Positions 5,873-13,625 of a stretch of DNA of 64,000 nt are shown piece after piece; within the stretch, counting starts at the first letter, position 1; each line of letters starts with the position of its first letter. The DNA is from Lucinisca nassula (taxonomy: Eukaryota > Mollusca > Bivalvia > Lucinida > Lucinidae), in NCBI GenBank assembly GCA_963580285.1, contig CAUZLF010000734.1:61970-125969 (forward strand). Reading direction: 5' to 3'. Both the position numbers and the translations under genes were made by a program. Under the pieces are notes generated by a model that was given only the letters and a program-made list of their open reading frames with translations, had not been told where the DNA came from and did not search any database.

Positions 5873-5879
5873 CTGTAGG

Positions 5880-6787
5880 GACCACAAGGGACTGTTCTTG
5901 GTCCTATATTGTTCTCCCTGTACATCAATGATATTTCCACTGACATTGACTCAGAAATAAGGCTGTTTGCAGATGACTGTGTTTGTTACCGGGAAATTAA
6001 AGATACAGATGACTCACTGAAACTTCAGGCTGACATAGATAGATTAGGATGTTGGGCCAGAAAATGGGGCATGAGATTTCAACCAGTTAAATGCAATATT
6101 ATGCAGATAACAAGGAAGAGATCTAATAAAGTTGAGGCTTCTTACACCTTAGAGGGAACGGTCCTCGAAAATGTGAATTCCATTAAATACCTTGGTGTGA
6201 CAATCACCCACGATTTGAGATGGAATACACACATTAGCAATATGTGTACAAAGGCGAATAGAACACTTGGTTTCCTGAGGCGAAATCTTCATCAGTGTCC
6301 TCAGGATGTGAAAGAGACAGCATACAGGGGACTTGTTTGCCCAATCTTGGAATATGGTAGTTGCATCTGGGACCCAAGCGGAGTGGTCCTTAATGAAGAA
6401 ATTGAAAAAGTTCAGAATAGAGCTGCTAGATTTGTAACTGGAAATTATTGCTTTGAAACTGGGAGCATGACTGGAATTCTAGGAAAATTAAGATGGGAGT
6501 CTCTCAAGAAAAGGAGAAGAGACAGTAGGCTCATACTCTTATACAAAGGTCTAAAGGGTGCTGCCAGCATTCCAACAGATGAGCTTGTTTCCCCGGCTAG
6601 GCACTGTAGAAAACACCATTCAATGACGTTTCAGACCCTTACTGCAAGAACGGATATTTATAAAGAATCGTTTTACCCCCGAACCATTAGAGATTGGAAT
6701 GCCCTTCCCGATTCTATTATTTTGACGGCTGAAGGTGCTGAGGATTGTGTAGCTAAGTTTACATCTTTGGTTAGAGCTAGGGACTAA
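5880..6787 (+). pseudogene. LINE reverse transcriptase fragment (CR1/Jockey type), 5'-truncated
   Basis: Reading begins inside the RT core at PQGTVLGPILFSLYINDI and is open to the stop at 6785-6787. It includes LFADDCVCY (catalytic Asp pair), the thumb region and the C-terminal FYPRTIRDWNALPDS motif. The N-terminal half of the RT and the endonuclease are missing. The remaining ~300 codons have no stop, so the insertion is fairly young. It differs clearly from the 3111-5077 copy and is a second family. 6788-6900 is its probable 3' UTR. Confidence 0.8.
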
Positions 6788-7014: not shown

Positions 7015-7037
7015 NNNNNNNNNNNNNNNNNNNNNNN
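7015..7037. other. Assembly gap (Ns)
   Basis: A run of 23 N characters. Sequence on either side need not be contiguous. Confidence 0.99.
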
Positions 7038-7348: not shown

Positions 7349-7916
7349 AAAGTAGAAGTAAAACAAAGATCAGGAATTGATACAATTAACTTACTCCACC
7401 CATAAAAGACACCAAAGGGAAAGAAATATAAACATTAAGCGACCAGACCATAATGAAAACCTAAACAAAGGAAGGCCATAAGGACAGTTACTTTCCCACA
7501 AAATGGCCATATGGCCATCCAAAACCAAAAGACACAAGTGAACCACATAGTAAGTAACAAACAACAACATAAATAAATCGCCACAGAAGAGCCGCCTTGG
7601 AACGGTCAGTGGAAGATTTCCACTGGGGGGCTTAAATCGATTTTACGTGGCCACAATCCTCGCCCTTACTTCCGTCGCGATTTAGACAAATAATTTGTTC
7701 AGTCCTAATGAAGGCCTCCTAACTCATCAGTGCAACATCTCCGTGAACACAAAAAATCAAAGAACCACAGAGGTGAGACAACGGTGAGGACTCGACAGCA
7801 AGAAACCACTGAAATGCTGGAGCAAAAGAAAACCAACAGTTAGACTCCGATGAGCCCGACCAGAGACAGAGCATCAGGCACCAACCAACATTATCTCTCT
7901 AATTTTCAATAAGCCT
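7349..7916 (-). other. Penelope-like element 3' UTR
   Basis: Non-coding stretch between the RT stop and the conserved 3' terminus at 7349. 7349-7612 matches the copies at 5021-5261 and 48463-48629. If the in-frame TGAs upstream are selenocysteine codons, a SECIS element would be expected here on the minus strand; I could not identify one by eye. A CTGATGA string at about 7729 (minus) lacks a pairing partner and a GAAA. Confidence 0.65.
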
Positions 7917-9505
7917 TTACGTTGGAGCCGTCATAGAATCTGAGGCCTGACCCACCGGCGTGCAATTAAAGAGGGAAGCAAAGTTGCCAACCGTGATTGG
8001 GTTAACTACCATGCATGCAGTCTGTCGTATAATATCCATGTTGTACCCAATCTTTTTATATCGAAGAATGATTTTACGAAATTGGGTGCTGAAGTCATTG
8101 CGGTTATATATTTTTCTGAATTTATATACTAAGTCACCATAAAATTTGGGTTCCGATAGACCTTGTTGCAGAAGAGATTTAAGTCCAATATTGAATTTTA
8201 AAATTAAATCAGAATGGCGTCTATAAAATTTTGAAAAGGCTTTGCGTAGTTTATGGTACCAATAACCCTGATTAAGGAGTTTAGCCGTTAATAATTTATT
8301 ACGAGTGTTGAAGTCAGTTATATGACTACACACTCTAGCAAATCGAATTAATTGCGAAATATAAACGCTATAGGATGGCGCACGAGGAACATCACCATCC
8401 AAAAAAGGAAAATTTACAATCTCAAAATCAAATTCATCGCGTTTATTATAAATTTTGCACGAAACAAATCCATCTACAATAGATAGATGTAAATCCAAAA
8501 ACGGGGCCTCGGTATCAGAAGAATTTGCTTTATTTAACTGAAGTTCTAGGGGGTAAATCTGACTGATCAAACCATCAAAATAGGTATTATCAATATTTAA
8601 TAAATCATCTAAATATCTAGAAGTAGAGCTAAAAGCTTCAATAATTTCAGATTGGTTATCAATGGAAAGCGACAAAATGAAGTCTCTTTCATAACAATAC
8701 AAGAACAGATCAGCCACAAGAGGTGCGCAATTAGTACCCATCGGAATACCCACAATTTGTCTAAATAACTTAGTACCGAATCTAATATAAATATTGTCAA
8801 GTAGAAAGGTGAGGGCATCACACACTTTCTGACATGACCAAAGTGTATAATTCTTATGCTCTTTAGAAGTGAAAAATGCATTTCTGACATTACATGCAAG
8901 ATAGAGAGAATCTTCTCTATGAAAAGCCCATTCAATTAAATCATTAAGCTTTTCTTTTATAAGATTATGAGGAAGTGTAGTGTAAAGAGTGGAAAAATCG
9001 TAGGTAGACAGACTAGAAGCACGAAAATGTCTAGATTTCAATTTATTTAAAACCTCATTCGAATTTTTTATAGACCAAAACAGAATTTCTTCCTGATCTT
9101 TCAAAGACTTTATCACAATATCTAATTACATGCGTTTTAATAGCAGTAAGGCAGGAAGTTAATAATTAAGAAAGTTCAGTGGTAGTGCAAGAGCTAGAAT
9201 TTGCAATAAACCGTGCTTTGTAAGGTTTTTTATGAAGTTTTGGTAACCAGTATAGCGTAGGAAGCTTGTCTTGGCCTTCGTTAACACACACAGCAAACTT
9301 GGTGGCTGAAAGACAAACATGTTTATCTACTATAGCTCTCTCTTCAGCTAAAGGCTGAAGTTCATGGGCCTTAGTACCACCAAGCTCCTGCTTAAGCGTG
9401 ATAACATAGTGGAGCCGTCACACAACGACGACGTTGTTAGCGGCCTTGTCTGCAGGGGCCAAAACAAACTTCTTATGAAATTCTTGAATACCTAGTTTTA
9501 AGATG
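7917..9505 (-). pseudogene. Penelope-like reverse transcriptase core
   Basis: The minus strand encodes APADKAANNVVVV, an in-frame TGA at 9418-9420, then RLHYVITLKQELGG, a LYWLPKLHK motif (typical of Penelope-type RTs), an in-frame TAA at 9166-9168, and a frame change near 9085. It then continues into a 399-codon open segment (9116-7917) with TYDFSTLYTTLPH (motif A), GIPMGTNCAPLVADLFLYCYE (motif B region), SRYLDDLL (motif C with the catalytic Asp pair) and EAPFLDLHLSIV (motif D/E region). TYDFS.LYT and YLDD-type motifs separate this RT from the LINE RTs in the window. The C-terminus has no second endonuclease. Confidence 0.85.
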
Positions 9506-9509
9506 ACGT

Positions 9510-9579
9510 AAAGTAGAAGTAAAACAAAGATCAGGAATTGATACAATTAACTTACTCCACCCATAAAAGACACCATAAA
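9510..9579 (-). mobile_element. 70-bp Penelope-element tail inserted in its own RT gene
   Basis: The segment is the terminal ~70 bp of the element's own 3' UTR, from AAAGTAGAAGTAAAACAAAG to 'aaagacaccataaa'. It is flanked by GACGT at 9505-9509 and 9580-9584, a likely 5-bp target duplication. It ends the upstream reading frame after LLPPKPKTS with residues read from the tail. Without it the pre-RT domain would join the RT core. Confidence 0.75.
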
Positions 9580-10304
9580 GACGTCTTGGGCTTAGGAGGT
9601 AATAAGTTAGTAATTTGAGAATAGAAAGAAATGCGTTTATTCACTAGTTTTAAAATGCTAAGTTTCCAGTCCTTAAGGGCTTTATGCTCAACATACTCTC
9701 GCTTACACCATCGATTACCGAATTCATTCAAGGAAGCAGCGATTTCATCTCTACATTTACTGAAATCAATTTTAGAATGAAACCGATATTTCGGTCCTTT
9801 ATAAATTATATTCCTTATCCTAGAATCAGGAATAATTTTCAAATTGCCAGTAACTACATGACCAGCAGCAGGATAGCAATACTTTGAGTTTTTACAATCA
9901 CATGAATCAGGGGTATTAGTATCAATATCAAGATCTGAAACAAGTTTATTGAAATTAAAAATGATAGATCTAACATGTTTGTTATATTTATAGCAAATTA
10001 TAGGTGTTTCAGTATTTTGAAAATAAGCAGGAATGGAAGAAAGCACCGATCTCTCACGGAAGATACTGGGTAAATCTATAAAATCCATACCCTTATTAAT
10101 GAAAGATATTTTGAAGAAATGGCGTTTATGATTAATTTCAGAATCAATGTAAGGACGGAGAGAATGCTGAGTATAGCCTCTAGTTAAGAGAGCCGCATCA
10201 TATAACTGATGAGAACTATCGTAGAATTTATTCACCTCGGTGTCCAGAAGACGTAAAACAGAAACGGGTAATGAACTTAAAAATGAAAGCATAGTGGCGT
10301 CCAT
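9580..10304 (-). pseudogene. Penelope-like element pre-RT domain
   Basis: About 240 codons with the conserved pieces CKNSKYCYPAAGHVVTGNL and RNIIYKGPKYR and a basic region (CKREYVEHKALKDWK). These resemble the segment that lies between GIY-YIG and the RT core in many Penelope-like proteins of invertebrates; this is recalled family knowledge. A CDCKNSKYC cysteine cluster is intact. The frame differs by one from the upstream GIY-YIG segment, which ends 22 bp earlier at a TGA (10327-10329). Either a frame error or a separate ORF with its own ATG at 10304 explains this. Confidence 0.7.
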
Positions 10305-10326
10305 GATTTAATAATATAATTGACAG

Positions 10327-11343
10327 TCACTTCAGTCTAGTATTGTTTCGTTTAAACGCACGTGATTTACGTTTAAAGTTACCATTTTTCCTGGTGCCGT
10401 GAGATCTAGTTCTGCGTTTTCGACATTCCAGGAGTGAGAAAATATCAAAGTCCGGCATTCTGGAAATATTAGCCTCATGATAAATGTTGTCATTAAATCC
10501 CAGTGGAAAAGGGGTCTGTAAAAATTTAATCCATTTCAGTTCAGCTTCATGTCTTTTGATTATTTTGAATCTAGATGTAGAATTTGCATCGTAATAAAGT
10601 TTTTCCACTGGTTGTATAACAATGTTATTTACAGAATGACCTGTATGTCGAAAGTGACGGTACAAGAAAGTGTCAGTTTTCTTAGGCTTACTCATTCTAC
10701 GATAATGCTCGTTCAATCTAGTTTTAAGCATGCGGTTAGTTTGACCGACGTACTGCATATTACAGTTTGCAGCACGTCAAGTAATTAAATAAATTAAATC
10801 TGTAGACTGTCATGTCAAATCATACATGTTAACTACAGAGAAGCGTCTACCGTTTACAGATGAAGTAACGGTAGACGCAGTGCTTAAATGCGAACAACAT
10901 CTGCACCTCTTGGCATTGCACTTAGAAATACTAGGATACATTCCACTTCTTTTCCACGGATTAGTATATTTTCGAAGGATGGGCGATTTGAGAGGAGATA
11001 GTCTTATACGAAGACTACTCCCAAAAACATTGGTATTGCCTGCTCCTTTGAGATTAACTGAAGTTACAGAAGACAAATTTAAGGGTCTAACCAATACCGA
11101 AGGCAACATAGTATTAAAGTTCTTAATAGAATGGGGAATCCGTACAGAAGAAGCAGAGTGTAACCTAAGGGGTGATATTGATATTTTAAATGTATTTGTA
11201 ATACTCATTTTGGTTAATAAGGTTGTGATACCGTCAAAACTAAAGCGATGTTCATACCGGTTATTAAATAAATAAATAAAACAGCATATAAAATTACTGA
11301 AGAAGATTCCTTCGAATAGAAGGAAGGTACAACAAAAGCCCAC
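10327..11343 (-). CDS. GIY-YIG endonuclease with Cys-rich leader; two in-frame TGAs, possible selenocysteines
   Basis: A single minus-strand frame runs from about 11343 to 10327 if two TGA codons are read through: 10812-10810 and 10779-10777. Before them lies a cysteine cluster (CNAKRCRCC). Between and after them the reading is QSTDLIYLIT, TGA, RAANCNMQYVGQTNRMLKTR, then LNEH. QYVGQT and the R...EH residues are the GIY-YIG core, and a basic C-terminus follows. In related Penelope-type proteins I expect Cys at both TGA positions (the patterns LTC.ST and YLITC..C before QYVGQT), where they complete a zinc-binding set. Both TGAs lying at such positions, with the frame otherwise open, favours selenocysteine over random decay. 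The first ~45 codons look non-coding, so the true start is probably internal, perhaps the Met near 11208. The final TGA at 10327 may be a real stop. Confidence 0.65.
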
Positions 11344-11583
11344 AAAACATCCTAGTCTACTTAAAGTACAGGGATGTCAAACAAGCAGTTGTTATACAAG
11401 GAGGAACGAACATCGGTTTAATAATGACCTTCAACAGGTATCTAAAAGATGTCAATTGATAGAACAGTGAAAAGCAATTGTATAAGCAATCCCTGAGGAT
11501 TGGAAAAATAAGAGCATTAAATGCATGTACGGGGAGACCTTTTACAGCCGCCACACGGCACAAACAAAACAGCCCTGATATGC

Positions 11584-11603
11584 AAAGTAGAAGTAAAACA
11601 AAG
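11584..11603 (-). repeat. 20-bp Penelope-element terminus before the element's leader
   Basis: AAAGTAGAAGTAAAACAAAG occurs here just upstream of the element's 5' leader. It may be a minimal truncated copy or the end of a preceding partial copy, since Penelope-like elements often form head-to-tail partial tandems. Confidence 0.55.
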
Positions 11604-11935
11604 AAAGTTCTCTTTATATACAAAGTCACTTCATTTTATAAGCACAAAAGTGAATTTTAAGTGGGTATCTGTGACTTTCCTTCATGTTTTTTTTTTTTTT
11701 TTTTTTCGCTGCTCATAAACATAAACTGTGGGTACTCGTTATAACCGAAGAAGCAGTTAACCGCATTTACCGACCAGAGATTTCTCAAATAACTCATGCT
11801 CAAAAACAATGACGTCTCATTCTATAAATATAAAGCGAGTTTATTTACCAGGATTCATGTGATTTTCCTACACGGGAAAGCCCATTTTATATAGAAAAAA
11901 CTGGGCTTACCCATTATGATTTTTGTTACTTTGAA

Positions 11936-12420: not shown

Positions 12421-12584
12421 TCTTCCTTCCTACATTAATCGCGCGTGCGCCAGTCATTAAGAGAATTGCTGTCACACAGTATTGAGTTATCTCGGTTGAT
12501 TAATCACAAGCTCGTGTTATTAGCATTTGGTCGACATATTATTTTGACTACGCTTGCTAATCATAAATTCATAGCTTTGACAAG

Positions 12585-12588
12585 AGAA

Positions 12589-12631
<43 letters not shown>

Positions 12632-12735
12632 AATAGTATTTTTTAATTCTCAGGATTATATTCCGTCTATTTAAAATATTCATAGCTTTGACATGAGAAT
12701 AAATAAATATATGAATAAATAAATAAATCGCTAAT
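12585..12735. repeat. (TAAA)n microsatellite, two blocks
   Basis: AATAAATA runs at about 12587-12632 and 12700-12728, separated by a partial duplication containing 'catagctttgac.gagaataaataaat'. Confidence 0.9.
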
Positions 12736-12764: not shown

Positions 12765-13117
12765 TTTAAGCAAGTGTGCCTAGAAATACTTGGATCAGCC
12801 TGCGCATATGCGCAGCATCCATGGTATGTTTCCTCCATTGAGGGTATAATTTTATGTGACGGAAAAATATAGTAGATCGTTTCATACACGCAAAATTTTG
12901 TTGTCACCAAATTAACTTATCTTTATTAACTGAAGCGGCACTGGTGCGTCATCGAGCATGTGTGCCTAGAAAAGACTTGGATCAGCCTGCGCATATGCGC
13001 AGTCCGGTATGTTTTCTCTGCTTAGGGTATAATTTTATGTGACAGAGAAATATAGTAGATCATCTCATACGTGTAAAATTTTCTTGTCACCAAATTAACT
13101 TGACTGTATTCCCGACC

Positions 13118-13148
<31 letters not shown>

Positions 13149-13625
13149 AAAAAAAACCTGAAGAGGCACTGAAGCGTCATCGATCAAGTGTGCCTAGAAA
13201 GGATCAGCCTGAGCATGTGCACAGTCTGATATGTTTTCTCTGTTTAGGGAATAATTTTATGTGACGGAGAAATATAGTATGGCATCTAATACGTGTAAAA
13301 TTTTCTTGTCACCAAATTAACTTGAATTTATTCCCAACCAAAAAATAAATCTGAAGAGGCACTGAAGCGTCGTCGAGCAAGTGTGCCTAGAAAAGACTTG
13401 GATCACCCTGTGCATATGCGCAGTCTGGTTTGTTTTATCGGCTGTTTGTTTTTATGTGACGGAGAAATATAGTAGATCATTTCATACATGTAAAGTTTTC
13501 TTGTCACCAGCTTGACTTTATTCCAGACAAGAAAATCTGTAGAACACTGAAGCGTCATCGAGTATGTGTGGCTAGAAAAGACTTGGATCAGCCTGCGCAT
13601 ACGCTCAGCCTGATATATGAATCTC
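12765..13625 (+). repeat. Tandem satellite, ~190-230 bp unit, five copies
   Basis: Units start at about 12768, 12955, 13185, 13377 and 13563 with GTGTGCCTAGAAA. Each contains GATCAGCCTGCGCATATGCG followed by CAG, which makes a CTGCGCATATGCGCAG palindrome in the early units; later units have degraded it. Each also has 'gggtataattttatgtgac', 'gaaatatagtagatc' and 'cttgtcaccaaattaacttg'. A C-run and CA repeat at 13113-13150 interrupt one unit. The CTTGTCACC part also occurs in the arms of the enclosing 7120-14160 element. Confidence 0.85.

Follow-up and report, generated by a model that had tools for sequence, protein, structure and literature searches.

We analysed a window of 64,000 nucleotides (nt) from the lucinid bivalve Lucinisca nassula (GenBank assembly GCA_963580285.1, contig CAUZLF010000734.1, positions 61,970 to 125,969 of the forward strand; all positions given here are those of the window). 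On the minus strand, it carries an inactive copy of a Naiad-type Penelope-like element, here called the focal copy. The open reading frame (ORF) of this element would start at 11208 and end with the TAA at 7919-7917, and it comprises 1,074 codons in a single frame that contains four TGA codons. These are very probably decoded as selenocysteine (Sec) with the help of a hairpin that resembles a selenocysteine insertion sequence (SECIS) and straddles the stop codon. The endonuclease (EN) lies in the N-terminal part and the reverse transcriptase (RT) follows. The features of the locus are listed below.

7349 to 11604, minus strand: Naiad-type Penelope-like element, inactive copy, with its 5' end at 11604 and its 3' end at 7349; the same span is aligned in the full-length copies of loci L025 and L028
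10327 to 11208, minus strand: N-terminal ORF part with the GIY-YIG endonuclease; start codon at 11208-11206, LIYLIT at 10797-10780, QYVGQT at 10755-10738
10810 to 10812, minus strand: TGA1, Sec candidate at residue 133; TGA in 23 of 23 copies
10777 to 10779, minus strand: TGA2, Sec candidate at residue 144; TGA in 25 of 25 copies
10327 to 10329, minus strand: TGA4, Sec candidate at residue 294 in the EN-RT linker; TGA in 38 of 38 copies and in frame in the long ones
9894 to 9902, minus strand: CxC linker motif, CDC; TGT in 46 of 46 copies
9510 to 9575, minus strand: 66-nt insert in the RT frame of the focal copy, identical to the element 3' end 7349-7414; its flanks abut in relatives
7917 to 9509, minus strand: RT part 3' of the insert, with YLDD at 8615-8604; frame broken in the focal copy
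9418 to 9420, minus strand: TGA3, Sec candidate at residue 575; TGA in 61 of 62 copies, with locus L023 as the exception (TGG)
9166 to 9168, minus strand: private nonsense codon TAA of the focal copy; AAA in the remaining 27 of 28 copies
7917 to 7919, minus strand: terminator TAA, within the apical part of the SECIS-like hairpin; TAA in 31 of 31 copies
7865 to 7944, minus strand: SECIS-like hairpin straddling the stop codon, with AUGA at 7934-7931 and UGAU on the 3' side; match to Rfam SECIS_1 of 25.1 bits

The element has a 21-nt terminal direct repeat (11584-11604 and 7349-7369). Its frame runs through all four TGAs to the TAA in L025, L028 and L027, where the aligned portion of L027 starts within the ORF, and through three TGAs in L023. 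Tandem arrangement was seen for the two copies in L025 and for four EN matches at 4,163-nt spacing on contig C3. When compared with L025, the focal copy differed at 47 of 3,223 aligned positions and had a 2-nt deletion near 10294, the insert of about 66 nt at 9510-9575 and a 1-nt insertion near 9084. The focal copy is a dead member of its family, killed by lesions other than the shared TGAs.

The original prediction, made from the window alone, had named TGA1, TGA2 and TGA3 as interruptions of otherwise open frames and had set the TAA at 9166 apart from them. The positions and contexts were as given there, and the open stretches of the focal copy extend over 188 amino acids (aa) up to TGA1, 149 aa after TGA2 and 83 aa after TGA3. 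The fourth TGA was missed, as the endonuclease frame was thought to end at 10327. A true frame end at this position was ruled out, since the shared TGA4 stands there and the long copies continue in frame.

The four codons were followed across the family in a census of matches with at least 90% identity and at least 60 nt, sampled from 20 larger loci, 40 short upstream pieces and eight loci, with the window's own place among the eight dropped. The census counts separate places; L032, L046 and L047 are identical in sequence, and L025 contributes two tandem copies. Copies of lower identity lie outside the census, and L016 (84%) among them reads AGA at site 4. The TGAs were kept in the young copies, so decay of the focal copy was ruled out as their origin. 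Apart from them, 18 in-frame stops remained, every one confined to one copy, and these were 12 TAA, 4 TAG and 2 TGA. Set against such private stops, the conservation at the three sites first named goes beyond coincidence, as had been argued. The TAA at 9168-9166 was tried as part of the shared pattern and rejected, because the other copies read AAA.

Searches of the genome with protein queries gave further counts. With query P0253, 72 of the 73 scored matches had four TGAs and one had three, and neither TAA nor TAG occurred. Query P0133 (286 aa), which spans site 4, found one TGA and no other stop in 136 of 136 matches. With query P0257, 41 of the 44 matches belonged to the focal family, with stops that summed to 160 TGA, 1 TAA and 0 TAG: 34 of the 41 had four TGAs only, five had three, one had five and one had four and a TAA. 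The UGAs are common to the best-preserved copies of the family, and the frame is otherwise open.

That the same TGAs are common to the copies would also fit a non-autonomous family that descends from a dead master element. In that case the master would have carried the four nonsense mutations and its copies would have been amplified in trans, a way in which retroelements can be mobilised. However, the four shared stops are all TGA, whereas the private stops are mostly TAA or TAG. The only stop-free match among the scored genome matches is a distant second family (L070), and other families have frame ends or tryptophan at the same cysteine sites. Selection on the frame also speaks against a dead master. 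Variants present in at least three copies were synonymous in 35 and non-synonymous in 14 cases, compared to 119 and 241 among the singletons, with nonsense changes counted (Fisher p 4e-7); the comparison leaves out variants found in just two copies, double changes and sites covered by fewer than eight copies. By this measure of sequence variation, purifying selection acted on the coding frame while the lineage was active. We regard amplification from a dead master as very improbable.

Cysteine had been expected at the three TGA sites first described. In an alignment of 33 relatives, site 1 was Cys in 13 of 16 non-gap rows, with one Trp and two mis-aligned rows, and site 2 was Cys in 14 of 17, again with one Trp and two mis-aligned. 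At site 3, Cys occupied 22 of 30 non-gap rows, besides five Trp, and three Asp that belong to canonical elements; another set of 14 relatives covering this site had 11 Cys, two Trp and one Ile. Conserved Cys was counted in 11 columns, and in one of these the focal sequence is mis-aligned. Such columns hold three of the four TGAs (P 0.0015 against random one-step codons). Within these columns, Trp appears at residues 133, 144, 437 and 575 only. Of 120 relatives of the endonuclease, 88 begin at a Met six residues behind site 2, as expected if a stop stood there; the rows that cover the sites had Trp in 10 of 11 at site 1 and in 11 of 12 at site 2, with Cys in one mis-aligned row. In the CxC motif, the second Cys was found in 30 of 30 non-gap relatives, and at the first Cys the frame often ends or a Trp is shown. 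The Trp residues at the Cys sites of relatives are probably TGA codons translated by a code in which TGA means Trp, because in P0138 and similar relatives the frame stops immediately ahead of residue 437, the position at which P0242, a relative of this kind, has Trp.

Relatives with TGC or TGT in place of TGA, which had been anticipated, were found in the same genome. A second Naiad-like family (L070, L071 and L072) has Cys codons at the two covered sites, namely TGT at site 2 (one covering copy) and TGC at site 3 (three copies), and also TGT at CxC (three copies). Its 12,503 bases gave no Rfam match at E <= 10, SECIS included. The sequence L070:1-4401 of this Cys-coded family holds an 885-aa open frame.

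The position of TGA4 in the linker, with a Met 13 codons later in the long copies, could also mean that the endonuclease ends at this UGA and that the RT starts independently downstream. Two separate ORFs would still leave the endonuclease cut by TGA1 and TGA2, and the RT part interrupted by TGA3 at residue 575, the last residue of a predicted strand. Relatives, moreover, pass the position of site 4, which lies in a predicted helix, in one frame. We therefore consider separate ORFs extremely improbable. Site 4 is a Cys in two closer relatives, P0128 and P0174, and its candidate Sec may have arisen from a Cys that is not conserved.

For a SECIS, a search of 7349-7916 had been suggested. There was a match to SECIS_1 at the 3' end, below the gathering score, but the hairpin exceeds this range, and a search of 7349-7916 alone would cut it because the SECIS-like element starts inside the coding region. 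The elements of the hairpin are the AUGA, a helix interrupted by a single U-U mismatch, a loop with AAA and the UGAU, and the terminator UAA lies in the loop. Between 6500 and 12500, SECIS_1 was the best Rfam match by E-value (E 0.15 over 4,227 families). In the family copies it scored 23.9 to 27.9 bits. The window and the copies gave ten SECIS_1 matches at E <= 10, each of them at the hairpin place of a copy. The computed fold energies, taken without shuffled controls, were about -50 to -53 kcal/mol in many young copies, which have a longer apical arm, versus -39 kcal/mol in the window copy.

Conservation at the end of the ORF points to the same place. In 86 of 120 relatives, the protein ends at most one residue away from the end of the focal ORF. 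These 86, which are not independent of one another, have Met at residue 1070 in 83 cases, and the next residue is Met, Thr, Ile or Lys in all 86. Since this Met precedes a residue with an A-initial codon, ATGA (AUGA in the RNA) is implied in 83 of the 86. In the full structure model the ORF tail is predicted to be disordered, which makes the RNA rather than the protein the likelier cause of the conservation of the tail.

Several observations weigh against decoding of the UGAs as Sec. The counts across the genome are of best-scoring matches, in which broken copies are under-represented; many more first-look candidates existed, and the scored ones are a selected rather than a random sample. A TGA was lost in five of the 41 focal-family copies and in L023. 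Site 4 lies off the conserved Cys columns, with Cys in 0 of 24 non-gap relatives of the 33-relative alignment. The SECIS_1 scores are under the Rfam gathering score of 35. Comparison with shuffled sequences gave weak z-scores of -1.76 (window copy, 123 nt), +0.16 (window copy, 101 nt), -0.23 (L027) and -2.33 (L011). Shuffled versions of the 3' 642 nt rarely matched a crude SECIS pattern (33 of 2,000), whereas those of the entire element did so often (71 of 300), so that the pattern stands out for the 3' end only. Two L019 copies with 81% identity had no SECIS_1 match and a different fold. Finally, the base after each of the four UGAs is C, and a UGA followed by C is a context that also favours plain readthrough. 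Given scores under this threshold, our claim is therefore that the element works like a selenoprotein gene and not that it carries a certified SECIS.

The C at +4 and the SECIS score under the curated threshold would both suit ordinary readthrough, in which near-cognate tRNAs insert Trp, Arg or Cys at the UGAs and the hairpin is incidental. Yet four such events in succession would presumably yield very little full-length product. The hairpin has the SECIS core with the AUGA implied in nearly all of the same-end relatives, and relatives have Cys at three of the sites. Ordinary readthrough appears improbable to us.

The assignment to the Naiad-type Penelope-like elements, as originally proposed, is supported by the layout of the ORF. 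In L025, L028, L023 and L027, GIY-YIG is located upstream of the RT in one ORF. Of 22 aligned members, 13 had a Pfam match to GIY-YIG and 11 had one to RVT_1; in the window pieces, the focal endonuclease piece included, no Pfam family was above the cut-off. The model of the endonuclease, with a predicted local distance difference test score (pLDDT) of 82.4, had two I-TevI entries at the top of its PDB matches (E 0.003 and 0.005). For the full model (pLDDT 78.8), the first 17 PDB matches were telomerase, with low template-modelling scores of 0.23 to 0.31 by query length. A GIY-YIG domain before the RT, a CxC linker and a telomerase-like RT together form what we take to be the Naiad layout.

In keeping with the Naiad type, which lacks a hammerhead ribozyme, no hammerhead match at E <= 10 was found between 6500 and 12500 of the window. 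Two weak hammerhead matches in L023 fall outside the element, and one of them, at L023:321-375, is type III-like with 28 bits, below gathering. The scan of a genome contig collection gave one short fragment, L029, which covers no Sec site, and that of a viral contig collection gave no match. In the neighbourhood of the focal copy, an RVT_1 fragment of a different retroelement adjoins it at 5879-6787 on the plus strand (Pfam, E 1.9e-13). A run of N at 7015-7037, either a gap or masked, lies near the 3' end of the element. Satellite-like direct repeats with a spacing of about 180-230 nt occupy 12796-13500, and AAAT-rich repeats adjoin them at 12559-12728.

Taken together, our results very probably describe a Naiad-type element with one ORF whose four UGAs (133, 144, 294 and 575) are decoded as Sec by the host via a SECIS that spans the stop. 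The product would have a GIY-YIG endonuclease at its N-terminus, followed by a CxC linker and a reverse transcriptase of the telomerase-like type. The SECIS would start within the final codons of the ORF and extend across the UAA terminator. SECIS-binding proteins would then act on the hairpin, as in selenoprotein P, and the host ribosome would read the four UGAs as Sec. Sec insertion, its efficiency and any selenium dependence of transposition are inferences.

The Naiads of spiders and clams reportedly encode selenoproteins with several selenocysteines. The element is most likely a new Naiad selenoprotein member, of a kind already reported from clams. It has in common with the Naiads the N-terminal GIY-YIG, the CxC linker, the telomerase-like RT and the tandem copies. 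In the focal element, one Sec candidate lies in the linker at a position that is not conserved, and the first position of CxC is an ordinary Cys. To our knowledge, such a Sec in the linker and a SECIS that overlaps the stop are an unfamiliar arrangement. Selenoprotein P likewise has several UGAs in one ORF that are decoded via a SECIS, but it is a secreted host protein.

For the GPX4-like selenoprotein of fowlpox virus, a SECIS within the ORF that works in mammalian cells was reported (Mix et al. 2007, as described in PMC6769590). This is a partial precedent for the SECIS-like hairpin at the stop codon. In neither case is the SECIS limited to the 3' untranslated region; the one of fowlpox is within the ORF, whereas that of the focal element spans the stop.

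It is possible, and we suggest it tentatively, that a SECIS overlapping the stop in a Naiad lineage made UGA and UGC or UGU nearly interchangeable, with Sec sites being gained and lost. Sec sites would come and go because, once the SECIS had been acquired, either codon type would serve. In this view, the focal family has Cys at CxC, at a position that seems to be UGA in relatives, and its Sec in the linker would sit where Cys is not conserved. If it holds, the element would be bound to the selenium supply of the host, and the terminator UAA would double as the apical adenosines of the SECIS.

The mobility of a retroelement that requires Sec would hinge on a trace-element pathway of its host. 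The many near-identical copies and the Cys-coded sister family offer a system to study why Sec is kept, be it for catalysis, for metal binding or by drift, and how a SECIS functions when it overlaps a stop codon. For annotation, the case is a warning, as the ORFs of Sec-type elements resemble pseudogenes.

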